The notes under the pieces: model-generated | The model's input: the letters and a program-made list of their open reading frames with translations, nothing else | Database searches by the model: none | What the model was told of the DNA's origin: nothing | Shown: one piece after another, positions 1,559-20,676 of the stretch | How the letters are laid out: each line of letters opens with the position of its first letter | How positions within the stretch are numbered: position 1 is the first letter of the stretch | Program-made: the position numbers and the translations under genes | Assembly: GCA_019084245.1 (NCBI GenBank) | Contig: JAHRFE010000009.1 | Location: 1 to 64,000, forward strand | Origin: Hoeflea sp. | GTDB lineage: Bacteria > Pseudomonadota > Alphaproteobacteria > Rhizobiales > Rhizobiaceae | Reading direction: 5' to 3' | DNA: 64,000 bases

Positions 1559-2259
1559 GCCCCCCTTGCCGCCCAGGCCATGCCGCGACGGATGATCTGC
1601 GTCACTTGCGGAACCTTGAGATCGTCGAGCGTGTGGCCAATGGAACAGTAGAAGACCCGGCCCTTGTCCCAGCGGCGCTTCCAGACAACCGGGATGACGG
1701 TCCCCTCGATCCACCACAGGTGCTCGCCGGAGAACGTGGTTGTCGCCAGCACCTCGTTGGAGGGATCGACCAGCATGTAGTATTGCTCGGAACGCAGCCT
1801 GAAACTCTTGATGCCCCGGACAATCGGATCGTCCGGCCGGGTGATCGTGACATCGTAATCAACGAAATCATCCGACGGAACGGGATTGTCCGGCCAACCC
1901 GGCGGGTGGGCGACAAACTGTCCGCCAATCAGGAAGTGATAGCTCGGATGGTCCCGGAAGGCGTCGCCCATATGGCCATGCCACCCCGCAATCCCGCATC
2001 CATCGGCGATCAGCTTGAGCAGGCCGAGCTCTTCTTCGCGGGTGATGTTGCCGAACTCGTCCTGGTGGGAGGATCGCGCGCTGGACCAGATCGGGACAAT
2101 CAGATCGACATCGGCCATGCCAGCAGGGTTGGCTAGCGGCGCAAGCGTGTCATGGATTTCGACCTCGAAGCCCTGCTGCTTCAGCAATGCCTCGCACCAA
2201 TCGCCAAAACTGGTCGGCGCGTGTCCTTCCCAGCCGCCGACAAACAGAGCTGCTTTCAT
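1525..2259 (-). CDS. ThuA-like domain protein
   Basis: 244 residues with the ThuA (trehalose-utilisation, class I glutamine-amidotransferase-like) fold: N-terminal AALFVGGWEGH, a central GIAGWHGHMGDAFRD segment and a C-terminal GRVFYCSIGHTLDD strand-turn. ThuA proteins accompany sugar importers and keto-sugar metabolism, but their chemistry is poorly defined. It is the last gene of the minus-strand importer operon; its ATG overlaps the stop of the preceding dehydrogenase (ATGA at 2256-2259). The 3' end runs 34 bp into the convergent ene-reductase gene. Confidence 0.85.
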   Translation of the reverse strand: MKAALFVGGWEGHAPTSFGDWCEALLKQQGFEVEIHDTLAPLANPAGMADVDLIVPIWSSARSSHQDEFGNITREEELGLLKLIADGCGIAGWHGHMGDAFRDHPSYHFLIGGQFVAHPPGWPDNPVPSDDFVDYDVTITRPDDPIVRGIKSFRLRSEQYYMLVDPSNEVLATTTFSGEHLWWIEGTVIPVVWKRRWDKGRVFYCSIGHTLDDLKVPQVTQIIRRGMAWAARGAQVSDASAPGS

Positions 2260-3128: not shown

Positions 3129-3129
3129 G

Positions 3130-4647: not shown

Positions 4648-5648
4648 GTTCTGAGTTCTCCCTTGCCCTTGACATTGAGCTGACGATCAAGAAACAGCAC
4701 CGCTATCAGGATCAGGCCAATGACCAGATTGACTGTCTCGGTATCGGCGCCGATATGGCCAAGGCCCTTGCGCAGCAATTGAATGGCGATCACGCCGCCA
4801 AAAGTGTTGATGACAGAACCGCTGCCGCCGGTGAGCTTGGTGCCGCCGAGAACAACGGCGGTGATCGCCCACAGTTCATAGAGTTCACCATCATTGGGGT
4901 TTACTGAACCGCTGGCCGAATAGAAAACGATGCTCGACAGGGCCGTCAGAAAGCCGATCAGAACAAAGTTCCAGAGCATGTGCGGCCCGACCCGGATGCC
5001 GGCATTGACCGCGGCCTCCCTGTTGTCGCCGACCGCATAGGCGTTGCGGCCATGCACGGTTTTCGTCATCAGGAACCAGATCAGAAAGGTCAGCACGATG
5101 AAGGCAATTGCCGGAAACTCCAGTCCGAGCAAACTGGATTCGATCATGTCGACCAAGGTCCAGTTGAGCAGGAATGTCGGCTGCTCGCCATTGTACATGA
5201 AAACGAGCCCGCGATAGCCCAGCATCGCCCCCAGCGTGACGATGAAGGCGTCGACACCGGTTTTCCAGACGATCAGCCCATTGATCGCGCCGAGCACCAT
5301 GCCGGTTAGCAAGGCCATCCCCCATGCGAAGGGAATGACGCCCAGTTCACCGAGGCCGGCAAAGATCGGCCAGGTCTGGGAATCCAGCATCACGATGGCG
5401 CATAGGGCAAAGATGGCGCCGACCGACAGGTCGATATTGCCGTTGATCATGATCACGGTCATGCCCAGCGCGATGATTCCGATAGGAGCCGACTGCTTGA
5501 GCAGTAGCAGCATGTTGTCGAGATCCATGAACTGCGTCTGGGACACAGACAGGAAGCGCCCCGCCACCGAGAAGAAGATCAGCTCAAGAACGATGAACCC
5601 CCAGATGGCGCCGCGCTTAATTGTCTTGGTTCGGTTTGATGTGGTCAT
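4644..5648 (-). CDS. Sugar ABC transporter permease, CUT2 (RbsC-like)
   Basis: 334-residue multi-spanning inner-membrane protein with the RbsC-like signature NGNIDLSVGAIFALCA and the late loop VVLGGTKLTGGSGSVINTFGG, which contacts the ATPase. I start at MTTSNRTKTIKRG (5648); a longer frame overlaps the upstream permease. Together with the permease at 5659-6633 it should form a heterodimeric channel. It lies 10 bp downstream of that gene and overlaps the ATPase by 4 bp. Confidence 0.92.
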   Translation of the reverse strand: MTTSNRTKTIKRGAIWGFIVLELIFFSVAGRFLSVSQTQFMDLDNMLLLLKQSAPIGIIALGMTVIMINGNIDLSVGAIFALCAIVMLDSQTWPIFAGLGELGVIPFAWGMALLTGMVLGAINGLIVWKTGVDAFIVTLGAMLGYRGLVFMYNGEQPTFLLNWTLVDMIESSLLGLEFPAIAFIVLTFLIWFLMTKTVHGRNAYAVGDNREAAVNAGIRVGPHMLWNFVLIGFLTALSSIVFYSASGSVNPNDGELYELWAITAVVLGGTKLTGGSGSVINTFGGVIAIQLLRKGLGHIGADTETVNLVIGLILIAVLFLDRQLNVKGKGELRT

Positions 5649-5658
5649 CTCGGCCCCC

Positions 5659-6633
5659 TCAAGCGATCGGTGACAGAAGGCGGCCACGCTTGGCTGCAAT
5701 GTCCAGCCACACGGCGAGAATGATAATCAGCCATGTCACGACATACTGGACATAGAATTCCAGTCCGACGAGCAGCAACCCGTTCTGGATGAACCCCAGG
5801 ATCAGAACACCGATCAGGGTCTTGAAGACAGTTCCCGAACCGCCAAGCAGGGACGCTCCGCCCAGGATGATCGCGGCAAGAACTTCCAGTTCCAGCCCCT
5901 GCCCAACCGTGTTCTGGCTGCCCATTGACCTGCTGGCTTGAAGCAAACCAGCCATCGCCACGCAAAACGACGAAATGAGATAGGTCATCAGCACCACCCG
6001 CGGACGGCGAATGCCGGAGAATGTCGCAGCCACGCCATTGCCCCCCACGGCATAGACCTTCCGGCCGAACGGTGTTTTGGCGAGCAGGATGGCAAGCAGG
6101 CACGCCAAGCCCAGGAATACGACAATCGGGACTGGCACGCCGAGGACCGAGCCTTGGCCGATGACGCTGAACCAGGTGCCTTCCTTGTCGGCAATATCCA
6201 TGTTCTTGCCGCCGGAGTAGGTCAGTGTGAGGCCGTGGATCGCCGACAACATGCCGAGAGTGACAATCAACGAATTGAGCTTGAAATAGCCGACCAGCAC
6301 GCCAATGAACCCGCCAAGCGCCATGGTCATGGCAAACATGGCGGGGATGGCCAGTTCAGGCCCGATCTTGTCATGCAGATCAAGGACAACAATGGTCGAA
6401 AACGACATCATGGAGCCAACCGAAAGATCCAGGTTTCCACTGATGACGACAAAGGTCACACCGAGCGCCATCACACCTAGAATAGCCGAGGATCGGACCA
6501 CACCCAGCACATTGTCGACCGCAAGAAAACGGTCATTGAGAAGCGCAAAGCCGATCATGAAAACCACGAATGCGATCAGAATACCCTGGCGCGCCAAGAG
6601 CTTGCCGATTGCGTTCAACCGTTCTTCCGCCAT
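5659..6633 (-). CDS. Sugar ABC transporter permease, CUT2 (RbsC-like)
   Basis: 324-residue inner-membrane permease and partner of the next gene. It carries the family segments SGNLDLSVGSMMSFS and IILGGASLLGGSGTVFKT and about nine hydrophobic helices. The start ATG at 6633 lies about 30 bp after the SDR stop. Two different permease genes are less common than one in CUT2 systems but occur often in rhizobial polyol or sugar importers. Confidence 0.92.
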   Translation of the reverse strand: MAEERLNAIGKLLARQGILIAFVVFMIGFALLNDRFLAVDNVLGVVRSSAILGVMALGVTFVVISGNLDLSVGSMMSFSTIVVLDLHDKIGPELAIPAMFAMTMALGGFIGVLVGYFKLNSLIVTLGMLSAIHGLTLTYSGGKNMDIADKEGTWFSVIGQGSVLGVPVPIVVFLGLACLLAILLAKTPFGRKVYAVGGNGVAATFSGIRRPRVVLMTYLISSFCVAMAGLLQASRSMGSQNTVGQGLELEVLAAIILGGASLLGGSGTVFKTLIGVLILGFIQNGLLLVGLEFYVQYVVTWLIIILAVWLDIAAKRGRLLSPIA

Positions 6634-6665
6634 CCTGTATTTCCTCCCAACGCTCGGTCCGGATT

Positions 6666-7478
6666 TCAGACCAACGTCATGCCTCCGTCAATCATGACGA
6701 TCTGCCCCGTCATGTAATCGCTTTCCTTCGACGCCAGAAACGTCGTCGTGCCGGTAATATCGGCGGGTGTCGCGACGCGTCCCCGCAGGATGTCTGCCGA
6801 AAACTCCTCGATCGCCTGCCCCTCCCGCTCGGAAGCGCCGATCTCCATCAGGTCCTTGTCGAGTTGGCGCCACATCTCCGTGGCGACCACCCCGGGGCCA
6901 AACCCCGTTACCGTGATATTGTGCTTGGCCAAATCGCGGGCACCCGACTGCGTCAGCGAAACCACGGCCCATTTCGACGCGCAATAGGGCGCGACATTAT
7001 CAAACCCCTGGCGGCTTGCGATGGACGCCGTGTTGATGATCTTTCCGCCCCTGCCCTGGGAAATCATCTGCTTGGCCGCTTCCTGCATACCGATGAGAAC
7101 ACCGAGGCCATTCACATCCATGATGTCGCGCCAGTTGTCCTCGGTCACATCGAGAAAGTTCATGGGCTTGTTTATGCCGGCATTGTTGAATTTGACATCG
7201 AGCTTTCCAAAGACGGCCACCGCCTTGGCTATCATCGCGCGCACTTGAACGCGCTCGCTCACATTCACCTCTGCCCAGGTTACCTTCCCGCCGCGCCGGG
7301 CCGCGCGCTCATGGTTGGCGTCGCTCACATCCTCGGCCATCCTGCCATTGATGTCGGCGAAGCAGACATCAGCGCCCTCTTCAAGCAGCGCTTCGCCAAT
7401 TGCGCGGCCAATTCCCTGAGCTGCGCCAGTCACGATACATGACCGGCCGCTCAGGCGTCCGTTGGAAACACCAGCCAT
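6666..7478 (-). CDS. SDR-family oxidoreductase (diol/polyol dehydrogenase-like)
   Basis: 270-residue classical short-chain dehydrogenase: cofactor motif TGAAQGIGRAI near the N-terminus, NNAG (in FNNAGINKP), catalytic Ser in TASIAS and YCASK (Tyr-x-x-x-Lys). The segment MWRQLDKDLMEIG and the terminal SDYMTGQIVMIDGG resemble acetoin/2,3-butanediol and sorbitol dehydrogenases. It is encoded between binding protein and permeases, so it probably oxidises the imported substrate. It is clearly paralogous to the SDR at 10569-11378 on the other arm of this divergent locus. Confidence 0.9.
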   Translation of the reverse strand: MAGVSNGRLSGRSCIVTGAAQGIGRAIGEALLEEGADVCFADINGRMAEDVSDANHERAARRGGKVTWAEVNVSERVQVRAMIAKAVAVFGKLDVKFNNAGINKPMNFLDVTEDNWRDIMDVNGLGVLIGMQEAAKQMISQGRGGKIINTASIASRQGFDNVAPYCASKWAVVSLTQSGARDLAKHNITVTGFGPGVVATEMWRQLDKDLMEIGASEREGQAIEEFSADILRGRVATPADITGTTTFLASKESDYMTGQIVMIDGGMTLV

Positions 7479-7508
7479 GCTTCCCCTCCCGAATATGCAT
7501 GAAGATCA

Positions 7509-7534
7509 GGCACAGGGCGTTCAGGCCCTGTGCC
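7509..7534 (-). promoter_or_regulatory. Intercistronic hairpin after the binding-protein gene
   Basis: GGCACAGGGC and GCCCTGTGCC form a perfect 10-bp stem with a 6-nt loop, 13 bp after the binding-protein stop and before the SDR start. There is no T-run. It may stabilise the upstream mRNA or partly stop transcription so that the binding protein exceeds the membrane proteins. Confidence 0.6.
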
Positions 7535-7547
7535 CCCAGGAAGGTCC

Positions 7548-8507
7548 TCAGAAGACCGGTTTGGTGAAGTCGCCCATATTGTCCTGGGTAATCTTCGGCG
7601 TATCGAAGTAGTTCAGAAAGGGAAGCTCCTCGCCATTGAGGACATCAATGGCGGTTTTCAGCGCCGCCTTGGCGTCATCGACCGGCGATTGATAGATCGA
7701 ACCCCAATATTCACCACGCTCCATGGCCTCATAACCAACGGCGAAATTGGTGGCGCCGACAAAGACGATGCCCTCGCGTCCGGCCGCCTTGGCGGCATTC
7801 AGGGCTCCCACGCCCATATTGTCATCGCCGGCGTAGACGCCGTCAATGTCATCATATTTAACGAGGAAAGCTTCCATCACCTTCTGCGATTTTTCGCGGT
7901 TCCAGTCGCCGGGCTGGGTTTCGACAAGGGTCACATCCGGGCACACTTCCGGCAGCCGGTCTTCAAAGCCCTTGGCCCGCTCGATGGCGGTGGTGTAGCC
8001 GGGCTGGCCGGAAATCTGGACGACGCGGGCTTCCTTGTCGATGCCCATGTCCTTGAACTTGTCGCACATGATTTCTGCCGACCGCGACCCTTGTGTGATG
8101 TTGTCCGGACCGGAGAACGACTTCACGAACTGATGGCCTTCCTCGGCGATGTTCGAGTTGGTCACGACGACCGGAATTCCCGCTTGCTGCGCTTTGCGCA
8201 CTGCAGGAATGACGGCCTTGCCATTGGTTGGCCAGATGATGATCGCGTCAACCTTCTGCTGGATCAGATCTTCCATCTGCGCAATCTGACGGGCGACGTC
8301 GCCACCGGCATCAAGCACGACAGCCTCAACGTTTTCATTGGCGCCTGCGGCCTCGATAAAGGCCTTTTCATAGGTGGTCTGATAACTGTCGACACCGACA
8401 TTGTTCTGCGTGATGCCGATGGTCATCTTGTCGGCAGCCAACGCCGATACGGCGAATGACACGGCGGCGATCGCCGTCGTAGCGGCCAGAATACTTTGAA
8501 ACTTCAT
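7548..8507 (-). CDS. Sugar ABC transporter substrate-binding protein (periplasmic-binding-protein type 1, CUT2)
   Basis: 319-residue RbsB-like periplasmic protein. The signal peptide MKFQSILAATTAIAAVSFAV ends near ALAADK. The mature part has the alternating type-1 folds, with DAIIIWPTNGKAVIP and YAGDDNMGVGALNAAK as hallmarks. I start at 8507, where GGGAGGAAAA lies just upstream; the longer frame runs into the promoter region. First gene of the minus-strand importer operon and divergent from the HTH/binding-protein fusion at 8733. The ligand cannot be read from sequence; neighbours suggest a small polyol or diol-like compound. Confidence 0.92.
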   Translation of the reverse strand: MKFQSILAATTAIAAVSFAVSALAADKMTIGITQNNVGVDSYQTTYEKAFIEAAGANENVEAVVLDAGGDVARQIAQMEDLIQQKVDAIIIWPTNGKAVIPAVRKAQQAGIPVVVTNSNIAEEGHQFVKSFSGPDNITQGSRSAEIMCDKFKDMGIDKEARVVQISGQPGYTTAIERAKGFEDRLPEVCPDVTLVETQPGDWNREKSQKVMEAFLVKYDDIDGVYAGDDNMGVGALNAAKAAGREGIVFVGATNFAVGYEAMERGEYWGSIYQSPVDDAKAALKTAIDVLNGEELPFLNYFDTPKITQDNMGDFTKPVF

Positions 8508-8732
8508 GGTTTTTCCTCCCGGGCACGATAGCCCTCGTATTTGCTCCTCATCACCCCGGCCACTCCAAACCAGGGCGGTCACCTGACTTGGCAAGTGATC
8601 TTCCCAACAATGACGAAGCGAGGCGGATGAAAGAATTCGTAATATATCCATTTTGGGTATTTTCATGTTCATATTGGACTTCTTGAGGCTGTCGCCAGTC
8701 TCTCAATTTGGACATTTTACAGGGAGGCCATC
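8508..8732. promoter_or_regulatory. Divergent control region with a direct repeat
   Basis: This 225-bp region separates the importer operon from the fusion regulator. Two similar 16-mers, ATTTTGGGTATTTTCA (8650-8665) and AATTTGGACATTTTAC (8705-8720), lie in the same orientation 55 bp apart and share 11 of 16 positions. They are candidate sites for the divergently encoded regulator. The ribosome-binding site GGGAGG precedes the ATG at 8733. No confident -35/-10 pair was placed. Confidence 0.4.
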
Positions 8733-10550
8733 ATGTCAAGTTCGAAAAGAGCACGATCGAAGGGCGGCAAGTCCGTTCGTCGCAAGGGGAAGGAGGCAGA
8801 AGTTTATCACATGGGAGGTTTAAGCGCGCAAACATTGGCGTCATCACCGCAGGCAAAAACGGAGATCCTCCAGGCGATTTCGTTTTTGAAGGATTTTGAT
8901 GACGAACTGGAAGACGTCGTCGACGTCTATGCGCCGAACCCGTATTTCAGGATGTCGCTGCACCTGATCCGCAGTCACCTCGAAGCCAAAACTGTAACAC
9001 CGACATCCTTGATCGGCGCCGCCGGCGTTCCCTATGCAACCGCGGCGCGGCGGGTCAAGGAAATGATCGCGGCCGGCCTCGTCGAACAGCGGCCTCGCAC
9101 CCTCACGGGCAAGACCTTCTCGATCCACCCCAGCGACAAGCTTCTGGAATCCTGGATGCAACTCACCGGCCGGCTGAAGCGCCTGGCCCAAAAGAATTTC
9201 GAATTCAGCGAGAAGCGGTCCGACGCCAGTGACTATTATTATGGCAGCTCCTACATGGCTGCCCGCTCGATACCTCCGCTTCAGGTTCTGCCGGAACCGC
9301 TGAAGCTGCCCGGCGGCGTGCGGGTTCTGGTTCATGGCGACCCCACCTTCATGGTGATGGACGCACTGAAGCGGCAGTTCGAGCAGGCGCTCGGCGCCCA
9401 GATCCATCAGCGCGCCTTTTCCATCGATCGCCTGCACGAGGAGGTCCTGCGCAACGCCGAACGCAAGTCGAGCCGCTACGACATCATCGCGGTCGATCTG
9501 CCATGGATCGGCGAGTTTGTGGAGAAGGGCATCCTGATGCCCTTGGATGAAGCGCTCGATCTCAATCGTCTTGATCCGGCTGATTTTCACACCGCAGGCT
9601 GGAAAGCCGCGCATTGGGGCCGCCGCGCCTATGGCGTTCCGGCTCAAACCACGCCCGAACTCCTGTTCTACCGGAAAGACCTGTTTGCCGAAGCCGGTCT
9701 CAAGCCGCCAACCACGACCGGAGAACTTCTCGACGTCGCCAGGCAGCTTCATGATCCCGCTCAGGGTCGCTATGGCATTGCCTGGAATGCAGCGCGCGGC
9801 ACCGCGCTCGGCCACACCTTCCTGATGACGCTCGCGGATTTCGGACAGCCGGTTCTCGACCTGCCAAGGGTGGCCGGAGGGTTTGATACCGATCATCTGG
9901 GGTCCCGGCCCTATCGGGCGCTGATCGACACCGATGCGGGACTGGCTGCAGCCGAATATCTCATGGCGTTGCTCGACTACTCGCCGCCCTATATTCTTTC
10001 GATGTCCTGGTATGAGCGGGTCCGCCCCTATGCAGCGGGTCAGATTGCCATGGCCTATGGCTACACCCTGCTCGCACCCTACTTCGAACTCGACCCGGGT
10101 TCGCCCGCGCGCGGCCAGACAGGATATGTGCCCCATCCCTTCGGGCCGGGCGGATCACCGATCGCGCCGGTTGGCGGCTACGCCATGGCAATACCCGCCA
10201 ACATCGCGCCCGAACGGCTCGCCGCCGCCGCGGATGCACTGATCATGTTCACCTCGCCGGAAGCGCAGAAGCTCTACATCCAGAACGGCAGCCGCACCAA
10301 TCCGCGCTATTCTGTCAGCGCAGATCCCGAAGTGCGGCGGTCTTCGCCGATCTTCGAAGCGGTAGACGGCATGTCCTGGCGCGACGAACTGCAATTCTGG
10401 CCACGCCCGCCGGTCCCCGAAATCAGCGACATCATCCGCATCTGCGGCGAGGAACTGCATGACATGCTGCGCGGTCTTCTCAGTCCCAAGCAGGCTCTGC
10501 GCAAGGCGCAAGCACGCGCCGACGCCATCATCAAACAAAACAGCGACTAG
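8733..10550 (+). CDS. Winged-helix DNA-binding domain fused to a family-1 solute-binding-protein domain; probable one-component regulator
   Basis: 605 residues. Residues 1-25 are basic (KRARSK, RRKGK) with no hydrophobic signal peptide. Residues about 70-155 read as a winged helix: TPTSLIGAAGVPYATAARRV then EMIAAGLVEQRPRT. Residues about 193-600 are a complete maltose-type solute-binding domain (ARYDIIAV-like DLPWIGEFVEKG, YGVPAQTTPELLFYRKDLF, MAYGYTLL, MFTSPEAQKLY). Known family-1 binding proteins are exported; this one should stay in the cytoplasm and sense a small molecule directly. It leads the plus-strand operon and is divergent from an importer, which fits control of both arms. The ligand and the operator are unknown. 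Confidence 0.8.
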   Translation: MSSSKRARSKGGKSVRRKGKEAEVYHMGGLSAQTLASSPQAKTEILQAISFLKDFDDELEDVVDVYAPNPYFRMSLHLIRSHLEAKTVTPTSLIGAAGVPYATAARRVKEMIAAGLVEQRPRTLTGKTFSIHPSDKLLESWMQLTGRLKRLAQKNFEFSEKRSDASDYYYGSSYMAARSIPPLQVLPEPLKLPGGVRVLVHGDPTFMVMDALKRQFEQALGAQIHQRAFSIDRLHEEVLRNAERKSSRYDIIAVDLPWIGEFVEKGILMPLDEALDLNRLDPADFHTAGWKAAHWGRRAYGVPAQTTPELLFYRKDLFAEAGLKPPTTTGELLDVARQLHDPAQGRYGIAWNAARGTALGHTFLMTLADFGQPVLDLPRVAGGFDTDHLGSRPYRALIDTDAGLAAAEYLMALLDYSPPYILSMSWYERVRPYAAGQIAMAYGYTLLAPYFELDPGSPARGQTGYVPHPFGPGGSPIAPVGGYAMAIPANIAPERLAAAADALIMFTSPEAQKLYIQNGSRTNPRYSVSADPEVRRSSPIFEAVDGMSWRDELQFWPRPPVPEISDIIRICGEELHDMLRGLLSPKQALRKAQARADAIIKQNSD

Positions 10551-10568: not shown

Positions 10569-11378
10569 ATGGACCCCAATCGCCTGAAAGGGAAAAACAT
10601 ACTCATCACTGGCGCCGCCCGCGGAATGGGAGCCGCCAACGCTATCTGCTTTGCCCGGCAGGGCGCCAATATCTGTCTCGGCGATCTTGACCTCGAAGAG
10701 GCAACCAAGGTCGCGGACCAGATCAATGCAGAGGGCAATGGCAAGGCGATTGCTGTCCAGATGGATGTCACCAAACGCGAGGACAATGCAGCTGCGGTTT
10801 CAGCGACAGTTGAAGCCTTCGGTTCGATCAATGTCGGCCTGTTCAACGCCGGCCTGAACAAACCCCGGTTCTTCATGGATATCGATGAGGACAATTGGGA
10901 CCTGATCATGAACGTCAACACCAAGGCGATGTGGCTCGGCATGCAGGAGACCGCCAGGCAGATGATTGCTCAAGGCCCTATGGAGGACCATCCCTACAAG
11001 ATCATCAATGTCGGTTCGATCGCCTCGCGCAAGCCGCTGGTTGACGTCACCGTCTACTGCACCTCGAAATATGGCTGCCTGGCGCTGACCCATTGCGGCG
11101 CGGTGGCGCTCGGCGAACACAACATCACCGTCAATGGCTACGCACCCGGGGTCGTGGTGACCCCGCTCTGGGAGCAGCTTGACAAGGATCTGGTCGAAAT
11201 CGGCTTCAAGCAAAGAGCCGGCCAGGCCTATGAGGACATCGCCAACAACGAACTGGTGATCAAGCGCGTGTCCTATCCCGATGACATCACCGGCACCGCC
11301 TCGTTCCTCGCAAGCGACGACAGCGACTACATGACCGGCCAGATGATCCACATCGATGGCGGCTGGTGCATTCAGTAA
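10569..11378 (+). CDS. SDR-family oxidoreductase (diol/polyol dehydrogenase-like)
   Basis: 269-residue classical SDR: TGAARGMGAAN, NAGLNKP, VGSIAS and YCTSK are the cofactor and catalytic motifs. The region WEQLDKDLVEIG and the ending SDYMTGQMIHIDGG match those of the SDR at 6666-7478, so the two are likely paralogues acting on related alcohols or on opposite stereoisomers. Starts 18 bp after the fusion regulator behind GAGGAGGAAACC. Confidence 0.9.
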   Translation: MDPNRLKGKNILITGAARGMGAANAICFARQGANICLGDLDLEEATKVADQINAEGNGKAIAVQMDVTKREDNAAAVSATVEAFGSINVGLFNAGLNKPRFFMDIDEDNWDLIMNVNTKAMWLGMQETARQMIAQGPMEDHPYKIINVGSIASRKPLVDVTVYCTSKYGCLALTHCGAVALGEHNITVNGYAPGVVVTPLWEQLDKDLVEIGFKQRAGQAYEDIANNELVIKRVSYPDDITGTASFLASDDSDYMTGQMIHIDGGWCIQ

Positions 11379-11447: not shown

Positions 11448-12746
11448 ATGTCTCGCGCGCTTATGCCGAACCTGTTGACACCACAAGATACCGAGCCTCA
11501 CTGGAGATGGGAGGGCCGCTTGCCGGCCTGGGGCCACACCAGTGTCGATTTCGAACGCCGGATCGATCACGACAGGCTGCGCCGCTATCGCCTGAGCCGC
11601 ACTGTCGAAGCCCTGAAAAAGTCCGATTGCGGCTCGCTGCTGCTCTTTGACGTCAACAACATCCGCTATGTGTCAGCAACCAAGATCGGGGAATGGGAGC
11701 GCGACAAGATGTGCCGCTTCTGCCTGCTCACGGGCGACGACGCGCCTTATGTCTGGGACTTCGGCTCTGCCGCCGTCCACCACAAGAAATATGCCGACTG
11801 GCTGGTCGACGAGCATTGCCGCGCCGGCGTTGTCGGCATGCGCGGAACCATCCCTCCGTCCTTCGGGCTGATGAAGCGCTATGCCGAGGAGATCGCCGGC
11901 CTGATTCGCGACGCCGGCATGATCGATATGCCGGTGGGCGTCGATTACGCCGAAACCGCAATGTTCTTCGCGCTCAAGGAAGCCGGCATCAATGTCGTCG
12001 ACGGCCAGCAGATCATGCTCAGCGCCCGCGAGATCAAGAACTGGGACGAGATCCAGTTGCTGACCCAGGCCGCCTCCATGGTAGATGGGGTCTATCACAT
12101 GATCTACGAGGAGCTGAAGCCCGGCATCCGCGAGAACGACATCGTCGCCATGTCCAACAAGCTGCTCTATGAAATGGGCTCGGACGACGTCGAGGCGATC
12201 AACGCCATTTCCGGCGAACGCTGCAATCCGCATCCGCACAATTTCACCGACCGGCTGTTCCGGCCCGGCGACCAGGCGTTCTTCGACATCCTGCAGTCCT
12301 ATCAGGGCTATCGGACCTGCTACTACCGCACGTTCAACATCGGCATGTCGACGCCCTCGCAGCGCGACGCCTATGTCAAGGCGCGCGAGTGGATCGACGC
12401 ATCGATCCAGGCCATCAAACCGGGCGTGACCACCGACCAGGTGGCCAAGCTGTGGCCCAAGGCCGAGGAATTCGGATTTCCCGACGAGCTCAGCGCCTTC
12501 GGGTTGCAATTCGGCCACGGCTTGGGCCTCGCCCTGCACGAGCGACCGATCATCAGCCGCGCCGTCAGCCTCGAAAATCCGATGGAAATCCAGACAGGCA
12601 TGGTGTTCGCGCTCGAAACCTACTGCCCGGCCAGCGACGGCTACTCCGCTGCCCGGATCGAGGAGGAGGTGGTCGTCACCGACAAGGGCTGTGAAGTGAT
12701 CAGCCTGTTCCCCGCGCAGGAACTGCCGATCGCCAACCGCTACTGA
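11448..12746 (+). CDS. M24-family (Xaa-Pro peptidase/creatinase-fold) protein with an altered metal site
   Basis: 432 residues with the creatinase N-terminal domain (about 30-175) and the pita-bread C-terminal domain (about 185-425). Of the five M24 metal ligands, Asp280 (FFDI), His357 (FGHG), Glu390 (ALETY) and Glu405 (RIEEE) are present. The second Asp of the usual D-I-T-R motif is replaced: the sequence reads TCYYRTF, with Cys291 at that place. Family members include peptidases, metal-free creatinase and DddP lyases, so a lytic or hydrolytic role on a small molecule is as likely as peptidase activity. Embedded in the acetoin-dehydrogenase-like operon, start preceded by AGGAGAG. Confidence 0.8.
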   Translation: MSRALMPNLLTPQDTEPHWRWEGRLPAWGHTSVDFERRIDHDRLRRYRLSRTVEALKKSDCGSLLLFDVNNIRYVSATKIGEWERDKMCRFCLLTGDDAPYVWDFGSAAVHHKKYADWLVDEHCRAGVVGMRGTIPPSFGLMKRYAEEIAGLIRDAGMIDMPVGVDYAETAMFFALKEAGINVVDGQQIMLSAREIKNWDEIQLLTQAASMVDGVYHMIYEELKPGIRENDIVAMSNKLLYEMGSDDVEAINAISGERCNPHPHNFTDRLFRPGDQAFFDILQSYQGYRTCYYRTFNIGMSTPSQRDAYVKAREWIDASIQAIKPGVTTDQVAKLWPKAEEFGFPDELSAFGLQFGHGLGLALHERPIISRAVSLENPMEIQTGMVFALETYCPASDGYSAARIEEEVVVTDKGCEVISLFPAQELPIANRY

Positions 12747-12805: not shown

Positions 12806-13801
12806 ATGAGTCCTGCCAAGAAAGACAAGTCGAACCGGGAAGACTACCTCAGAATGTACCGGCAGATGGTGCGGATCCGCGCTTTCGAGGACAATGCGAA
12901 CCAGCTCTATCTGTCTGCCAAGATGCCCGGCCTGACCCACATGTATTCCGGCCAGGAAGCGGTGGCCGTGGGCATCTGTGAAGCTCTCACATCCAACGAC
13001 AAGATCACCTCCACCCATCGCGGCCATGGCCATTGCGTGGCCAAGGGTGCGGCATTCAAGCAGATGTTCTGCGAGCTTCTCGGCAAGGAGGAAGGCTATT
13101 GCCGTGGCAAGGGCGGCTCCATGCACATCGCCGACCAGGCCAACGGCAATCTCGGCGCCAACGCCATTGTCGGCGGCTCCATGGGGATCGCCACGGGCGC
13201 GGCGCTTTCCGCCAAACGCCTGGGCAAATCCGACGTCACGGTCTGCTTCTTTGGCGATGGCGCCACCGCGCAGGGGCTTCTCTACGAAGTCATGAACATG
13301 GCGGCGCTGTGGAACCTTCCGGTTATCTACGCCTGCGAGAACAACGGCTATAGCGAATACACCCGCACCGACGAGATCGCAGCCGGATCGATCACCGCCC
13401 GCGCCGAGGCTTTCGGCATCGAAAGCCACACCGTCGACGGACAGGATGTGCTTGCCGTCAACAAGCTGGCCACGGATCTGGTCGCCCGCGCCCGCAAGGG
13501 CGAAGGCCCGTTCTTCATCGAACTGATGACCTACCGGTACCACGGCCACCACGTCGGCGACATCAATCGCGAATATTACCGCCGCAAGGACGAAGAGGCC
13601 GATTGGAAGACCAATCGCGACCCGATCACGAATTTCGGCAAATGGCTGGAAGACCAGAAGATCGTCACGGCGGACGAACTGGTGGGCATCAACAACGAAA
13701 TCAAGGCCGAGGCGGAAGAAGCCGTCGCCTACGCCGAGAAGGCACCCTACCCCTCCATCAACGAAGTGGACATGCACGTGTTCGCGTCCAACGCCGCCTA
13801 A
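12806..13801 (+). CDS. TPP-dependent dehydrogenase E1 component, alpha subunit (pyruvate/acetoin dehydrogenase type)
   Basis: 331 residues. The thiamine-diphosphate motif begins at FFGDGATAQG and ends about 28 residues later in CENNGY. The phosphorylation-loop-like segment YRYHGHHVGD is typical of E1 alpha. I start at MSPAKKDKS (12806) behind ACGGAG; the longer frame adds a non-family tail. With the beta subunit it decarboxylates or cleaves a 2-oxo acid or acetoin-like ketone and passes the acyl group to lipoyl-E2. SDR and aldehyde dehydrogenase neighbours favour an acetoin-like substrate. Confidence 0.9.
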   Translation: MSPAKKDKSNREDYLRMYRQMVRIRAFEDNANQLYLSAKMPGLTHMYSGQEAVAVGICEALTSNDKITSTHRGHGHCVAKGAAFKQMFCELLGKEEGYCRGKGGSMHIADQANGNLGANAIVGGSMGIATGAALSAKRLGKSDVTVCFFGDGATAQGLLYEVMNMAALWNLPVIYACENNGYSEYTRTDEIAAGSITARAEAFGIESHTVDGQDVLAVNKLATDLVARARKGEGPFFIELMTYRYHGHHVGDINREYYRRKDEEADWKTNRDPITNFGKWLEDQKIVTADELVGINNEIKAEAEEAVAYAEKAPYPSINEVDMHVFASNAA

Positions 13802-13813
13802 GAGGAGACGATC

Positions 13814-14809
13814 ATGCGCGAGATAACGCTCTCAAAGGCCGTCAACGAGGCCATCGCCGAGGAAATGCGGCGCGATCCGACAGTTTTCGTCATCGGCGAG
13901 GATGTGGCCGAGGCGGGCACGCCGTTCAAGGTTCTGTCCGGTCTGGTCGAGGAATTCGGCACCGACCGCGTCATCGACACGCCGATCGCCGAACCCGGCT
14001 TCATGGGCATCGCCGTGGGCGCGGCCATGACCGGCAGTCGGCCGATCGTCGACCTGATGTTCGGAGATTTCCTTTATCTGGTGATGGATCAGCTCTGCAA
14101 TCAGGCAGCCAAGACGCACTACATGTCGGGCGGCAAGCTAAGCGTTCCGCTGGTGCTGCGCACCAATCTGGGGGCGACGCGAAGATCGGCCGCCCAGCAT
14201 TCGCAATCCCTGCACGCCCTTGTCGCCCACATTCCCGGCCTCAAGGTCGCCATGCCCTCATCGGCCTATGAGGCCAAGGGGCTGATGAAGACCGCGATCC
14301 GGGACAACAATCCGGTGGTCATCTTCGAAGACAAGCTGATGTACAACGACAAGGCGCCGGTGCCGGAGGAGGAATACCTCATCCCGTTTGGCGAAGCGGC
14401 CATTCTGCGCGAAGGCAACGACATCACCATGGTCGCCACCTCGTCGATGGTGCAGGTCGCGCTTGCAGCGGCCGAACTCCTGGCGCGCGACGGGATTTCC
14501 GCCGAAATCATCGACCCGCGCACCATCGTGCCGCTCGACGAGGACACCATTCTCCGGTCAGTCCGCAAGACCTCGCGCGCCATTGTCATCGACGAAGGCC
14601 ACCAGAGCTATGGAATCACCGGCGAGATCGCCAGTCGTATCTCGGACAAGGCGTTCTACCATCTCGATGCGCCGGTCCAGCGCATGGGCGCCATGGATGT
14701 ACCGGTGCCCTTCTCGCCTGTTCTGGAGGACATCACCGTGCCGACGGCCGAAAGCGTGGCCGAACGGGCCAGGCAGCTACTTCGCGGGGACCTGTTCCAT
14801 GCCGCATGA
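13814..14809 (+). CDS. TPP-dependent dehydrogenase E1 component, beta subunit
   Basis: 331 residues, transketolase pyrimidine-binding domain followed by the C-terminal transketolase domain. Typical segments are VFVIGEDVAEAG, DTPIAEPGFMGIAVGAA, GATRRSAAQHSQSLHAL and IIDPRTIVPLDEDTI. It lacks the N-terminal lipoyl domain that many rhizobial PDH E1 beta subunits carry; two lipoyl domains are supplied by the next gene. It starts 12 bp after E1 alpha and overlaps the E2-like gene by 11 bp. Confidence 0.92.
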   Translation: MREITLSKAVNEAIAEEMRRDPTVFVIGEDVAEAGTPFKVLSGLVEEFGTDRVIDTPIAEPGFMGIAVGAAMTGSRPIVDLMFGDFLYLVMDQLCNQAAKTHYMSGGKLSVPLVLRTNLGATRRSAAQHSQSLHALVAHIPGLKVAMPSSAYEAKGLMKTAIRDNNPVVIFEDKLMYNDKAPVPEEEYLIPFGEAAILREGNDITMVATSSMVQVALAAAELLARDGISAEIIDPRTIVPLDEDTILRSVRKTSRAIVIDEGHQSYGITGEIASRISDKAFYHLDAPVQRMGAMDVPVPFSPVLEDITVPTAESVAERARQLLRGDLFHAA

Positions 14810-16178
14810 CGTCATCATGCCCGCCCTGGGAATGGCGCAGGACACCGGCAAGATCGTCGCCTGGCTCAAGCAGTCCGGCGATCCGGTCAAGGCCGGGGAA
14901 GCCATCATGGAAGTCGAGACCGACAAGGCGACCATGGAAGTGGAGGCTCAGGCCGACGGCTTTCTCACGGGCATTACCGCCAGCGCCGGCGATGACGTTC
15001 CCGTGGGCCAGCCGGTCGCCACGATCTCGGAAACCGCCGACGAGGTTCCAGCCCCATCCCCGGCTCCGGTGGATGAATTGCAAGATGTGGCTCCCTCGGG
15101 CAATGGCCTGCCCGAAGGACGATCCATCATCATGCCGGCGCTGGGCATGGCGCAGGATACCGGCCTGATCGTTGCCTGGCGCAAGTCGCCCGGCGACAGG
15201 GTCGCATCCGGCGACGTCCTGCTGGAAGTGGAAACCGACAAATCGGTGATGGAGGTCGAGGCAGGTCATGACGGCTTTGTCGCCGCAATCCTGGCGCAGG
15301 CCCAGGAGGCCGTACCGGTGGGCAGCGTGATCGCGATCATCTCCGATGCAGTTCCAGAGAGCCCGGTATCCCGCAGCCTCGCATCGGGTCCGGGTCCGAA
15401 CCAAAATCCGGCTCCCGAACCACCTGCCAATGGGGCGGACGCTCCGCCCCAGCCAGCAATGTCTGCGGCTCCGCGCCCAGCTTCCAAACCTGCCCGGAGC
15501 ACGCCCCCGGGACCGGATATGCCTGCCGCCGGGGACCGCATTCTTGCTTCACCCAAGGCAAGGCGCCTCGCGCAGGAGCAGGGGCTTGACCTCAAACGGC
15601 TGGTCGAACACGGCGTTGCCCAGCCGTTTCATGTGGCCGATCTCGAAACCCTGCGCACACTTCCGGCGGTCTCGCCGACCGGCGAAGCTTCTGGGTCTGC
15701 CGCACATGTGCTGCACATCACCGCACGCGTATCCACCAGTGGCTGTGATGACTTCATCCGCTGGTTTGCCGAGGATGGCAAGATTACCCTGGATCCGGCC
15801 TCGCTCTGGCTGTGCTTCGCGGCAGCTGCGCTGCGCAGTGCCGGGCAGCCAGGATCTGATCAATTGGTTCTCGGTGTCGACCGGCCAGGCTCCGATACCG
15901 TCCATTATGCCGATCCGGACCTGACGCGCGTGTCGCAACCTCAGCCTGTCGAACCGGAGGCAAGCGCCGATCTTATGCTGCGCGATCTGACCGGCAGCCT
16001 TTTGACTTCGGTCAGACTGACCGCCGGCGCATGCCCGGTCCTGACGATCGGCCGCGACGACACGGCCTACATTCTATCGCTCGACTTCACGGCATCGCAG
16101 CTCACGGAGACCGAAGCGATTTCTTTCCTCACCGATTTCGCCGAGCGCATGCAAGAGCCGCTCCGCCATATCCTCTGA
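14799..16178 (+). CDS. Lipoyl-carrier E2-like protein: two lipoyl domains, E1/E3-binding domain, degenerate acyltransferase remnant
   Basis: 459 residues. Lipoyl domain 1 (2-78) carries Lys43 in VETDKATMEV and lipoyl domain 2 (108-184) carries Lys148 in VETDKSVMEV. A Pro/Ala-rich hinge (185-245) and a peripheral-subunit-binding domain (248-285, ASPKARRLAQEQGLDL) follow. The C-terminal 160 residues resemble an acyltransferase domain that is shortened and lacks the catalytic HxxxDG: where it should stand the sequence reads LSLDFTASQLTETEA. It should therefore carry acyl groups but not transfer them. The intact catalytic domain is encoded separately at 17624-18523. The start ATG at 14799 overlaps E1 beta; an open frame extending to 14388 is a shadow of that gene. 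Confidence 0.85.
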   Translation: MPHDVIMPALGMAQDTGKIVAWLKQSGDPVKAGEAIMEVETDKATMEVEAQADGFLTGITASAGDDVPVGQPVATISETADEVPAPSPAPVDELQDVAPSGNGLPEGRSIIMPALGMAQDTGLIVAWRKSPGDRVASGDVLLEVETDKSVMEVEAGHDGFVAAILAQAQEAVPVGSVIAIISDAVPESPVSRSLASGPGPNQNPAPEPPANGADAPPQPAMSAAPRPASKPARSTPPGPDMPAAGDRILASPKARRLAQEQGLDLKRLVEHGVAQPFHVADLETLRTLPAVSPTGEASGSAAHVLHITARVSTSGCDDFIRWFAEDGKITLDPASLWLCFAAAALRSAGQPGSDQLVLGVDRPGSDTVHYADPDLTRVSQPQPVEPEASADLMLRDLTGSLLTSVRLTAGACPVLTIGRDDTAYILSLDFTASQLTETEAISFLTDFAERMQEPLRHIL

Positions 16179-16191
16179 CCGGGAGATCCCC

Positions 16192-17622
16192 ATGGACCAC
16201 ACCCAACTCTACATAAATGGCGAATGGCGCGAGGGCGCGGCTGGCGCGCGCATCAATGTGATCAACCCGGCCACCGAAGAGGTGCTTGCCTCGGTCGCAT
16301 CCGCAGAAATATCGGATGCGGACGCCGCTCTCGATGCTGCCCAGGCGGCTTTCTCGGACTGGGCGGCGCGCAAGCCGCGGGAGCGCTCGGAAATTCTGCG
16401 CAAGGCCTGGGAACTCATGACCGCAAGGCTGGAGGATTTCGCAAGGCTGATCACGCTTGAAAACGGCAAGGCCCATGCCGATGCAATTGGTGAAGCGACC
16501 TATGCCGCCGAATTCTTTCGCTGGTTTGCGGAAGAGGCGGTGCGCGCCGACGGAATGATCACCATGGCGCCCTCTTCCGGTGCGCGGATCATCGTGCAGC
16601 ACAAGCCGGCCGGCATCGCCGTCCTGGTCACCCCATGGAACTATCCGGCCGCCATGGGCACCCGCAAGATCGCGCCGGCGCTCGCCGCAGGCTGCCCGGT
16701 CATCATCAAGCCGGCTTCCGAGACGCCACTGACCATGCTTGCGCTGATGCCTCTTCTGGACGAGGCCGGCGTTCCCAGAGGACTGGTCAATGTTCTGCCG
16801 TCGAAGAATTCCGGCCGGCTTGTCGATCACATGCTGCACGATCCGCGCGTCCGTGTGATCTCGTTCACAGGTTCCACCGAAGTCGGCCGCAAGCTTTTGC
16901 ATTCGGCCGCCGACCAGGTACTCAAACCGGCGATGGAACTGGGCGGAAACGCCCCGCTGATCGTTTTCGAGGATGCCGATATCGACAAGGCGGTCAAGGG
17001 CGCCATGCTTGCCAAGATGCGCAACCTTGGTGAAGCCTGCACGGCTGCCAACCGCTTCTATATTCATGAGAAAATTGCGCCTGCCTTCACCAAAGAATTC
17101 ACACGGGCCATGGCAACGCTCAAGCTGGGCAACGGCCTTGACAAAGGTGTTGATATCGGTCCGCTGGTGAATGCGGCAACGCGAGACAAGGTTGCAGCCT
17201 TTGTCGATGATGCCGTGGCCAAGGGGGCCAAGGTGGAGCTTGGCGGCACCCGACCGAACGGCATCGGTTTCTTCTACCCGCCCACGGTTCTGTCCAACGT
17301 GCCGGAAACCGCCGATTGCGTTGACGACGAGATATTCGGACCCGTCGCTGCACTGCAGACCTTCACCGATGAGGAAGACGTCATCCGCCGCGCCAACAAC
17401 ACCGAATACGGGCTGGTGGCCTATGTGTTCTCCGAGGACATGAAGCGCGCCATGCGCGTCTGCGAGCGGCTGGAATACGGTATGGTCGGTCTCAATCGCG
17501 GCCTTGTCTCCGATCCGGCCGCTCCCTTCGGCGGCGTCAAGCAGTCCGGGCTGGGCCGCGAAGGCGGACACGAGGGCACGCTGGAATTCATGGAAACCCA
17601 GTACATCTCGGCAGAGTGGTGA
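16192..17622 (+). CDS. NAD(P)-dependent aldehyde dehydrogenase (succinate-semialdehyde dehydrogenase-like)
   Basis: 476-residue ALDH. Motifs in order: TPWNYPAAM, the cofactor loop SFTGSTEVGRKL, the catalytic Glu in MELGGN, the catalytic Cys in GEACTAANR and EIFGPVAAL. Closest in style to GabD-type enzymes. It sits between the two halves of the split E2, 13 bp after one and 1 bp before the other. In acetoin systems such an enzyme oxidises the aldehyde released by E1; that role is an inference here. Confidence 0.92.
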   Translation: MDHTQLYINGEWREGAAGARINVINPATEEVLASVASAEISDADAALDAAQAAFSDWAARKPRERSEILRKAWELMTARLEDFARLITLENGKAHADAIGEATYAAEFFRWFAEEAVRADGMITMAPSSGARIIVQHKPAGIAVLVTPWNYPAAMGTRKIAPALAAGCPVIIKPASETPLTMLALMPLLDEAGVPRGLVNVLPSKNSGRLVDHMLHDPRVRVISFTGSTEVGRKLLHSAADQVLKPAMELGGNAPLIVFEDADIDKAVKGAMLAKMRNLGEACTAANRFYIHEKIAPAFTKEFTRAMATLKLGNGLDKGVDIGPLVNAATRDKVAAFVDDAVAKGAKVELGGTRPNGIGFFYPPTVLSNVPETADCVDDEIFGPVAALQTFTDEEDVIRRANNTEYGLVAYVFSEDMKRAMRVCERLEYGMVGLNRGLVSDPAAPFGGVKQSGLGREGGHEGTLEFMETQYISAEW

Positions 17623-17623
17623 G

Positions 17624-18523
17624 ATGAGCAACGAAACCTACATCGCCAGCCCCTCGGTGGTTGCCTATGCCGGGCGCAAGAAGATCGACCTGTCCGATGT
17701 CGCACGCAAATCCGGTCGGCTCACACTCGCCAAGGAAGATGTAGACAGTCACATGAACCAGTCAGCGCCCACAGCATCATCCACGCCCGCCGCCGGCGAA
17801 TACTGGGACGTGGATCACGCGGCATTCGGGCCGGTCAGCCCGGAGCCCTTGTCCCGAATGGCCCGGGTCGCAAGTGCGAATCTCTCGGCCGCCAATGCCA
17901 TGATCCCGCAAGTCACCCATCACGATCGGGCGGACATGCGCAGGCTGGAGGCTTTTCGCGCGTCTCAAAAGGCGGAAGCCGCGCGACGCGGTGTGCGGCT
18001 CACGGCTCTCGCCTTTCACGTCAAGGCGCTGGCAATCTGCCTGCAGGAATTTCCCCGCTTCAATGCCTCGCTTTCTCCGGACGGAGGAACCCTTGTCCTC
18101 AAGCATTATGTCCATATCGGCATTGCCGTGGACACGCCGCATGGCCTTTTGGTTCCGGTCATTCGCGACGCGGACAAGAAGGGGTTGTGGCAGATCGCGG
18201 CCAGCATCGCCGATCTGGCGACACGGGCCCAGGCGCGCAAGATCCGCCCGGACGAAATGGGCGGCGCCTCGATGTCGATCTCGAACCTGGGCGGCATCGG
18301 CGGAACGGCATTCACGCCGATTGTCAATCCGCCCGAACTGGCGATACTGGGAATCACGCGCACCGAGACCGTGCCTGTCTGGGAGGATGAAAGATGGAGG
18401 CCCGTGCCGATGACGCCGCTCGATTTGTCTTACGATCACCGGGTGATCAATGGCGCGGACGCCGCGCGCTTCCTGGCGCGCTACGCGAAGCTCCTTGCCG
18501 ATCCGCGCCGGATGGTGATCTGA
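17624..18523 (+). CDS. Dihydrolipoamide acyltransferase catalytic subunit without lipoyl domain (split E2)
   Basis: 299 residues. A peripheral-subunit-binding domain (about 6-44, ASPSVVAYAGRKKIDL) is followed by the acyltransferase domain (about 65-299) with MSISNLGGIGGTAFTPIVNPP and the active site SYDHRVINGADAARF. His272 is present and the usual Asp of HxxxDG is Asn276, a substitution I recall from some bacterial E2p enzymes. There is no lipoyl domain, so it must use lipoyl groups carried in trans by the product of 14799-16178. Starts one base after the aldehyde dehydrogenase stop. No E3 gene is present. Confidence 0.87.
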   Translation: MSNETYIASPSVVAYAGRKKIDLSDVARKSGRLTLAKEDVDSHMNQSAPTASSTPAAGEYWDVDHAAFGPVSPEPLSRMARVASANLSAANAMIPQVTHHDRADMRRLEAFRASQKAEAARRGVRLTALAFHVKALAICLQEFPRFNASLSPDGGTLVLKHYVHIGIAVDTPHGLLVPVIRDADKKGLWQIAASIADLATRAQARKIRPDEMGGASMSISNLGGIGGTAFTPIVNPPELAILGITRTETVPVWEDERWRPVPMTPLDLSYDHRVINGADAARFLARYAKLLADPRRMVI

Positions 18524-19392: not shown

Positions 19393-20676
19393 CTACATCT
19401 GATCCGGCAGATCACCGACAAGGATCGCGCGGAAATCATTGACATTGGTTCCGGTCGGGCCGGTGACAAACAGATCATCGATGGCGTCAAACGCGGACCA
19501 AGCATCATTGGCTGCAAGACTTGCGAGCGGGTCCATGCCCTTGGACCAGAGTTGGCTTGCGGTGCCGGGACCGGCGAAAGCGCCGGCATTTTCTTCCGAG
19601 CCGTCAATGCCATCGGTGTCGGCGGCAAGCGCCGCGATCCCCTCGATACCGTCAATGGCGGCGGCAAAGGACAAGAGGAACTCCGTGTTCCGACCGCCCC
19701 TGCCCTTGCCGCGCAGGGTGACGGTCGTTTCACCGCCGGACAGGATAACCACCGGCTTGGTGAAGGGACGGTCACGGCTCGCCACTTCCCTGGCAATGGC
19801 AGCGTGCACCAGTCCTACATCGCGTGCCTCACCCTCGATGGCATCCGACAGGATAATGGCTGCAACGCCCCTGCCTCTTGCCAATTCCGCTGCTGCCTCA
19901 AGCGACAGGCAGGCGGAGGCAATGATGCGTGTTTCGTTGCGCCCAAAAACAGGATCGTCCGGACGCGGCGGCAGATCATTGCCCCGCTCCAGATGCGCGC
20001 GGATCTTCTCGGGCAGCTTGATGCCGCGCGCGGCCACCATCGCCCGAACCTGGGTCAGCGTGACCTCATCGGGAACCGTCGGGCCGGAAGCAACCTGGCA
20101 GGCCTGGTCGCCGGGCACGTCGGAAACCACCAGCGACACCACCCTTGCAGGCCAGGCGGCGGCGGCAAGTCGGCCACCCTTGATCCGGCTTGCATGTTTA
20201 CGGATCGCGTTCATCACCCCGATCGGCGCGCCTGACGCCAGAAGAACCTGATTGAGTTGCTGCTCATCTTCAAGGGACATGCCCTCAGGCGGAGCAGGCA
20301 ACAGCGCGGAGCCGCCGCCACAGATGAGCGCCACCACCAGATCGTCTTCCGTCAGCCCCGAAACCGCGTCGAACAATGCCTGCGAAGCGGCCAGCCCGGC
20401 ACTGTCAGGCACGGGATGGCTGGCTTCGAGAACGGTGATGGATTTGCACGGCGTGGCATAGCCGTATCGGGTCACCACCGTGCCGGTCAGTGGCCCGTCC
20501 CAAAGCTCCTCAAAGGCCGCAGCCAATTGCGCAGCCCCCTTGCCTGCGCCGACAACAACGGTCTTGCCCTTTGGTCTTGGAGGAAGCGCGTCCTTGAGGG
20601 CGCGCCTTGGATCGGCGCGCAACACGGCGGCCTCGAACAGGCGGCTCAGAAATTCTCGCTTTCGAATATCAATCAC
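19393..20676 (-). CDS. Glycerate 2-kinase (MOFRL family, TtuD/GckA-like)
   Basis: 427 residues. The N-terminal DUF4147 part has VVGAGKGAAQLA, EASHPVPD and the glycine-rich CGGGSALLPAP. The C-terminal MOFRL domain has SGGETTVTLRGKGRGGRN and AADTDGIDG. The family phosphorylates D-glycerate to 2-phosphoglycerate using ATP. The ATG overlaps the Dabb gene stop by 4 bp. It could feed glycerate from hydroxyacid or tartronate metabolism into glycolysis; which local pathway uses it is unclear. Confidence 0.92.
   Translation of the reverse strand: MIDIRKREFLSRLFEAAVLRADPRRALKDALPPRPKGKTVVVGAGKGAAQLAAAFEELWDGPLTGTVVTRYGYATPCKSITVLEASHPVPDSAGLAASQALFDAVSGLTEDDLVVALICGGGSALLPAPPEGMSLEDEQQLNQVLLASGAPIGVMNAIRKHASRIKGGRLAAAAWPARVVSLVVSDVPGDQACQVASGPTVPDEVTLTQVRAMVAARGIKLPEKIRAHLERGNDLPPRPDDPVFGRNETRIIASACLSLEAAAELARGRGVAAIILSDAIEGEARDVGLVHAAIAREVASRDRPFTKPVVILSGGETTVTLRGKGRGGRNTEFLLSFAAAIDGIEGIAALAADTDGIDGSEENAGAFAGPGTASQLWSKGMDPLASLAANDAWSAFDAIDDLFVTGPTGTNVNDFRAILVGDLPDQM

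Follow-up and report, generated by a model that had tools for sequence, protein, structure and literature searches.

A 64,000-nucleotide stretch of the Hoeflea sp. genome (assembly GCA_019084245.1, contig JAHRFE010000009.1, positions 1 to 64,000; hereafter the window) carries an operon in which the acyltransferase (E2) is divided between two genes. The first product, E2L (14799..16178, + strand, 459 amino acids), carries the lipoyl domains and ends in an acyltransferase domain that is dead. The second product, E2C (17624..18523, + strand, 299 amino acids), is a lipoyl-free catalytic acyltransferase. By computation, we find that this two-chain anatomy is conserved in many marine bacteria, that the dead domain of E2L is maintained, and that the domain and its residue Arg456 covary with the presence of E2C. 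We consider the chances somewhat better than even that these genes specify a dehydrogenase complex of the 2-oxo-acid (or acyloin) type, in which E2C forms the core and docked E2L supplies the lipoyl groups in trans, as a bacterial analogue of the E3-binding protein (E3BP).

Pfam finds two lipoyl domains in E2L (E 2.4e-36). The first (14808..15026; PF00364 on residues 4-76) contains the lipoyl lysine K43, and the second of the two PF00364 stretches (15123..15344, approximate limits) contains K148. They are followed by a peripheral subunit-binding domain (15540..15665), which starts at about residue 248 and matches the E3_binding family (PF02817) with 23.6 bits, 0.1 bit below the cut-off of 23.7 bits. 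The C-terminal part (15705..16175) is a predicted pseudo-acyltransferase domain, judged by AlphaFold, Foldseek and hhalign as described below. It ends in a tip with the consensus qPLRHLL (16155..16175), which includes Arg456 (codon 16164-16166). E2L has no Pfam match to the acyltransferase family PF00198 at E 0.1 and no active-site H...[DN]G motif. By profile and by active-site His, E2L falls outside PF00198, though its predicted fold is that of an E2.

In E2C, the only Pfam domain is the acyltransferase (PF00198, E 2e-78), and there is no lipoyl domain. The catalytic domain has the active-site His of the family, and the catalytic residues H272 and N276 are encoded at 18437..18451 on the + strand. 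The closest solved structure is Azotobacter vinelandii E2p (252.8 bits), which contains DHRVING, with HxxxNG as in E2C. Therefore, judging from the identical motif, E2C looks catalytically active. The Asn of HxxxNG had been considered as an abnormality; this idea was dropped, because the solved E2p shares it. In E2C, Pfam recognises no subunit-binding region; the region is assigned from a TIGR01348 match that starts at residue 3 and from the conserved residues A8, P10, S11, and D39. The AlphaFold model of E2C is mediocre (pLDDT 71.5, 11 rows) and has three helices in this region.

An earlier note on this DNA, made from the sequence, had described a first chain in which two lipoyl domains and a subunit-binding domain are followed by a shortened acyltransferase remnant lacking HxxxDG, a second chain with a subunit-binding region and a catalytic domain (His272, Asn276) but no lipoyl domain, and an aldehyde dehydrogenase (ALDH) gene between the two. 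Pfam and motif searches agree with this anatomy, the binding region of E2C being the part that Pfam does not recognise, and the ALDH gene lies at 16192..17622. Because E2C has no lipoyl domain, acyl groups would have to be transferred between chains if E2L and E2C work together. A full-length E2 elsewhere in the genome may serve the E1 of the operon, a possibility that the same note had named as a refutation of its proposal. The three other E2 genes of the genome are of a different kind, with 26-35% identity to E2C. Two of them are adjoined by E1-type genes, and no E1 of this type is found in 19 kb near the third. The refutation by a full-length E2 serving this E1 was thus not borne out.

The arrangement, which the earlier note proposed to look for elsewhere, is widely conserved. 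In a sample of 199 genomes of the order, nine genomes besides that of the window pass a full-length match to the E2L end with more than 60 bits, at ten places. The gene order M24 enzyme, E1-alpha, E1-beta, E2L, ALDH, E2C is present in 10 of the 10 places, with E1-alpha as two open frames in one of them. Genome G015 (28% identity end-to-end, E 2.9e-5) was left out of this count, and its 19.5-kb stretch contains no E2L, ALDH or E2C. We also scanned one genome per species, in 84,980 species, for the M24 protein, and examined the best 80 of 364 relatives. E2L is present in 70 and E2C in 58 of these 80 loci. Both E1 genes accompany E2L in 70 of 70 loci, and the ALDH gene lies between E2L and E2C in 57 of the 58 loci with both (55 by a stricter rule). 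All E2C proteins (58 of 58 in the M24 search, 10 of 10 in the order) have an HxxNG-type site, and none of either group (0/58 and 0/10) has a lipoyl motif. Among the 70 E2L proteins, 53 have two lipoyl motifs, 16 have one, and one with a split frame has none.

Ten loci of the M24 search are without E2L. In seven of them the stretch stops close to a contig edge or right at it, and in the other three (L077, L094, and L102) no E1–E2 block follows the M24 gene; in L102, the E1 genes are at the far end of the stretch from the M24 gene. Twelve loci have E2L without E2C, and three of these (L051, L069, and L120) end at a contig edge. Among 398 Pseudomonadota genomes, E2L is found in 8, and 7 of these 8 have a lipoyl-free E2C. 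The next-best match of any of these genomes sits in a 582-residue frame. The best other matches are in long frames, with a lipoyl-type motif in 10 of the 12 examined, a number that excludes two E2C proteins as well as two E2 proteins belonging to the genome of the window. One of the 8 genomes is from another class; it has the same cluster, with an E2C that lacks the binding-domain region, and then an E3 gene. No relatives of E2L were found in a scan of viral contigs. A local frameshift or sequencing error as the origin of the split was considered and dropped, the same two genes being present in the same-order loci and the named genomes. E2 is divided between two proteins in many marine bacteria.

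Structure prediction gives the C-terminal domain of E2L an E2 catalytic fold. The AlphaFold model of the binding domain plus the C-terminal part, built from 55 rows, has a pLDDT of 92.4. In Foldseek, the best 50 of 120 matches (E <=0.001) are all E2 or E2-derived chains, with E values of 6e-10 to 8e-7, identities of 7-15%, and query template-modelling (TM) scores of 0.51-0.64. Set beside the mediocre E2C model, the dead domain has no counterpart to the N-terminal helix or the long helix 188-205 of the catalytic domain. When the binding domain is included, profile comparison with a mixed E2 alignment gives a probability of 85.5 and an E value of 5.7e-6. Because the first sequence comparisons were weak, deeper rows and column shuffles were needed for the dead domain alone. 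With these, hhalign scores 29.7 over the last 36 residues; none of 200 column shuffles exceeds 19.4, and the reversed profile scores 13.2. The alignment pairs the DHR strand with LDFTASQL and the C-terminal helix with its counterpart. An M24 profile used as a control comparison gives nothing. In accordance, the possibility that this region is not an acyltransferase fold, which had been named in advance as damaging to the proposal, did not materialise in the AlphaFold and Foldseek predictions.

Several results weigh against this assignment. The root-mean-square deviations of the Foldseek matches are large (4.8-15.6) and the TM scores moderate. Taken by itself, the dead domain has weak sequence homology to E2 (probability 25% and E 7.7e-4 in hhalign), an earlier profile comparison of the dead domain with E2C, using 11 rows, gave a probability of 5%, and the dead-domain profile finds no E2 among solved structures, just weak unrelated matches.

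The dead domain is under purifying selection. In pairs more than 60% identical, the ratio of nonsynonymous to synonymous substitution rates (dN/dS) is 0.10-0.46 for the dead domain and 0.08-0.23 for E2C. The values are well below 1 but above those of E2C; therefore, the dead domain is kept under looser constraint. The C-terminal tip is the best conserved of 13 E2L segments compared. In the 55 rows, the tip has 3.47 bits per column, the binding domain 3.22, and the strand at the DHR position 2.10.

These data bear on the possibility that the dead domain is a decaying relic of a single split, with lipoyl domains that serve E2C by diffusion and a C-terminal domain without any role. E2L is indeed the least conserved protein of the E1–E2 block, with 33-52% identity in ten relatives versus about 72-90% for E1, and its dead domain has roughly double the dN/dS of E2C. 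However, the ratio is still well below 1, the tip is the best conserved segment and covaries with E2C (see below), and the domain is present in the genome of the other class and in the 70 E2L loci of the M24 search, although those loci were counted by that domain and the argument is partly circular. We therefore regard a relic as unlikely.

Residue Arg456 follows the presence of E2C. In a first set of loci, 71 of the 73 that have E2C carry Arg456, as against 0 of the 9 that do not. Three further loci cut by contig ends were left unscored; all three have the Arg. The second set is from 394 genomes of one family, in which E2L occurs in 54 genomes at 55 places. We took 54 stretches, omitting the broken E2L of genome G521, and removed 12 that match a member of the first set exactly over the C-terminal 160 residues of E2L, leaving 42. 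Arg456 is present in 34 of 34 rows with E2C (33 by motif, one with Thr for Pro) and in 2 of 7 without; row L238 is too short to score. In the combined unique rows, from which L254 is absent, Arg456 is present in 101 of 103 rows with E2C versus 1 of 15 without. Among 86 conserved positions, Arg456 differs most between the two groups (0.98 versus 0.07), and the next position differs by 0.60. In rows without E2C the binding domain keeps most of its conservation (0.77, from 0.86 with E2C), while that of the dead domain drops from 0.76 to 0.51. Two genomes with two clusters behave in the same way. In Ruegeria sp. EL01, the copy with E2C (L173) has the Arg and the copy without adjacent E2C (L057) has none; in Roseobacter insulae, the same is true of L058 and L085, respectively.

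We also used a four-gene tree of the E1, M24, and ALDH proteins, made by a quick method and including two branches that are long (L168 and L255). The E2C state changes 11 times on this tree, at least nine of the changes being forced by supported branches, with gain and loss indistinguishable. Nine independent contrasts give seven in the same direction, none in the opposite direction, and two equal (sign test, p 0.016). The covariation points to a mutual dependence of E2C and the E2L end, and it supports the earlier proposal that the dead domain works together with the active one.

A number of observations argue in the other direction. L254 and L255 keep the Arg without E2C, and L084 and L110 are without it despite E2C. 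The Arg is likewise kept in the unscored L238, from genome G744, where no E2C is detected at E 1e-60, although the contig of L238 ends 1.7 kb past E2L. The broken cluster of G521 also keeps the Arg, and no E2C is found in that genome at E 1e-60. (This cluster, L169, is a decayed copy, with the E2L frame broken and the ALDH partial.) The sign test is not significant on the less resolved three-gene (p 0.125) and two-gene (p 0.25) trees, and the four-gene tree, on which it is significant, has the E2C-less L255 among its two long branches. Moreover, the loss of E2C may simply relax the whole C-terminal domain of E2L. Finally, sixteen scored E2L loci have no adjacent E2C (nine in the first set and seven in the second). 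Elsewhere in the genome, E2C was detected for two of the nine first-set loci (L057 and L085) but not for the other seven, and none was found at E 1e-60 in nine further genomes, among them all seven from the second set whose E2L locus is without E2C. Several of the 14 genomes without any E2C found are metagenome-assembled genomes, and no completeness figures accompany the first-set ones.

Because no E2C was found in these genomes, E2L can persist without it and may use another core. The nine first-set loci without adjacent E2C are L050, L057, L076, L079, L085, L095, L117, L123, and L125. One lipoyl motif is present in 14 of 15 E2L rows without E2C, and two are present in 83 of 103 rows with E2C. 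E2L could be a carrier for housekeeping E2 cores, also or instead, with E2C as a dispensable accessory acyltransferase. The seven first-set genomes in which canonical E2s but no E2C are found, and the seven of the second set, fit such a role. However, the absence of E2C coincides with the absence of Arg456 and with relaxation of the dead domain, and in the two genomes with two clusters it is the copy without E2C that is without the Arg. We consider a carrier for housekeeping cores quite unlikely.

We return to the preferred reading, a complex of an E2C core and docked E2L. In this complex, E2C would form the acyltransferase core and carry no lipoyl domain, and every lipoyl group would sit on E2L, together with the main domain for subunit binding. 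The tip of E2L, with Arg456, would contact E2C and dock the carrier on the core, as E3BP docks on the eukaryotic core. E1 would load the acyl group onto the lipoyl of E2L, E2C would transfer it to coenzyme A in trans, and E3 would reoxidise the lipoyl. E3 is encoded in the operon in some species and is presumably shared in others. The docking, the lipoyl transfer in trans and the partner of the E2L binding domain are inferred. According to the excerpted text of PMC10415282, actinobacterial E2p has a C-terminal insertion that prevents its trimers from touching one another. In fungi, according to excerpts of PMC7494870 and PMC10156792, E3BP sits at the E2 trimer interface, and its core-binding domain descends from the E2 catalytic domain. 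By analogy with these two cases, the likeliest role of the E2L tip would be docking at the trimer–trimer interface. To a wider proposal we give an even chance: that bacteria, independently of eukaryotes, arrived at an E2 of two chains with full division of labour, in which an E3BP-like carrier docks by the Arg tip of its dead domain, the docking residue being missing in nearly all of about nine or more core-less lineages.

The ALDH (16192..17622, + strand; PF00171, E 3.6e-160) has an ordinary single-domain architecture, with GEAC at residues 280-283 and MELGG from residue 248. The earlier note had suggested that it might be part of the complex. As a structural component, it would receive the acyl or aldehyde product directly, and its intermediate place, seen in 57 of the 58 M24-search loci that have both E2L and E2C and in all ten places of the order, is in keeping with this. 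However, the ordinary architecture with GEAC and MELGG gives the idea no support, and among the 70 E2L loci found through M24 there are four (L117, L123, L125, and L073) where E2L is not followed by the ALDH gene. L117, L123, and L125 are also without E2C, but L073 has both E2L and E2C and no ALDH. In acetoin systems, E1 releases an aldehyde. Oxidation of such an aldehyde by the ALDH would explain the position of the gene without any contact between the proteins. We consider a structural role of the ALDH very improbable. Judging from the gene content, an acyloin may be split into acyl-lipoyl and an aldehyde that the ALDH oxidises.

The genes described above are part of a packed row of forward genes, which runs from 8733 to a short-chain dehydrogenase gene at 18528. 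The row is headed by a solute-binding-protein-like protein (8733..10550, +), a frequent neighbour of the cluster with PF01547 on residues 245-513. The domain is preceded by about 200 residues, seemingly without a signal peptide, which by eye resemble a DNA-binding region; the protein could act as a regulator whose sensor is of the transporter type. It is followed by a short-chain dehydrogenase (10569..11378, +), a usual member of the cluster by profile matches and by the neighbours in relatives, and by the M24-family enzyme (11448..12746, +; PF00557), a conserved upstream neighbour with 81-92% identity across ten relatives from the order. The M24 enzyme resembles DddP (NF043017), but with 114.9 bits it is far under the cut-off of 600. 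E1-alpha, a thiamine-diphosphate dehydrogenase subunit (12806..13801, +; PF00676, E 6.7e-79), has pyruvate dehydrogenase E1-alpha as its nearest solved relatives. E1-beta (13814..14809, +; PF02779/PF02780) matches NF006667 with 401 bits at a cut-off of 321. The end of E1-beta overlaps E2L by 11 bases. The gaps are 12 bases between E1-alpha and E1-beta, 13 between E2L and the ALDH gene, 1 between the ALDH gene and E2C, and 4 between E2C and the next gene.

A divergent sugar-type ATP-binding cassette (ABC) transporter set (binding protein, two permeases, and double ATPase) is present at 1525-8672, accompanied by short-chain dehydrogenase, 3-hydroxyisobutyrate-dehydrogenase-like, and ThuA genes, and adjoins the cluster in many loci. 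Therefore, the substrate is probably polyol- or sugar-like. On the other side, a glycerate-kinase-like gene (DUF4147, MOFRL) on the opposite strand (19393-20676) adjoins the operon; it is also present in L049, the nearest relative. A search of the window with the Phaeobacter E3 turned up no E3 gene. Among the 91 loci searched, an E3 gene with at least 50% identity to the Phaeobacter E3 is present in 12, one of them partial. The annotation of a Phaeobacter plasmid lists, in this order, E1-alpha, E1-beta, a lipoyl protein, ALDH, E2, and dihydrolipoyl dehydrogenase.

In a textbook E2, the lipoyl arm and the catalytic core are on one chain. Their conserved natural separation within one operon makes the reason for the usual fusion experimentally testable. 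It also offers a bacterial counterpart of E3BP, with several lineages that lack the partner, and it gives a single-residue prediction, Arg456. In a limited search of open-licence literature, we found no description of a split E2 or of a bacterial E3BP.

Among the closest known systems is the eukaryotic E3BP (mammalian PDHX; fungal protein X). Like E3BP, E2L has carrier and subunit-binding domains and an inactive E2-type C-terminal domain. The lipoyl domains precede the subunit-binding domain, which scores 0.1 bit below the Pfam cut-off, and the C-terminal domain has no catalytic His and appears to descend from E2, with weak sequence evidence from the domain alone. Unlike E3BP, a broadly eukaryotic gene according to an excerpt of PMC10156792, E2L is bacterial, its docking is proposed from covariation, and its dead domain is shortened in its own way. 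The partner of E3BP is an E2 with its own lipoyl domain; in contrast, the active partner E2C has no lipoyl (no motif in any of the 58 and 10 E2C above), so the carrier role of E2L is unshared.

Actinobacterial OdhA/KGD also has a lipoyl-free E2 catalytic domain that relies on the lipoyl of another chain, as far as the excerpted text of PMC10415282 goes; E2C would share this reliance. However, the same excerpt describes the OdhA/KGD domain as fused to E1 and as using the lipoyl of the E2 of another complex, whereas the carrier E2L is encoded in the same operon as E2C and has no acyltransferase site. The catalytic domain of E2C resembles A. vinelandii/AceF-type E2p, including HxxxNG, but E2C is without any lipoyl domain. 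In acetoin dehydrogenase operons, the genes of E1-alpha, E1-beta, E2, E3, and 2,3-butanediol dehydrogenase lie together, according to an excerpt of PMC6595428. E1, E2, and E3 genes share one operon in the Phaeobacter plasmid and 12 of the 91 loci, but not in the window, and the cluster here differs from acetoin operons in its two-chain E2, ALDH, M24 enzyme, and sugar-type ABC transporter. The parts are therefore of known kinds, and the arrangement is E3BP-like, set apart by an active partner without lipoyl.

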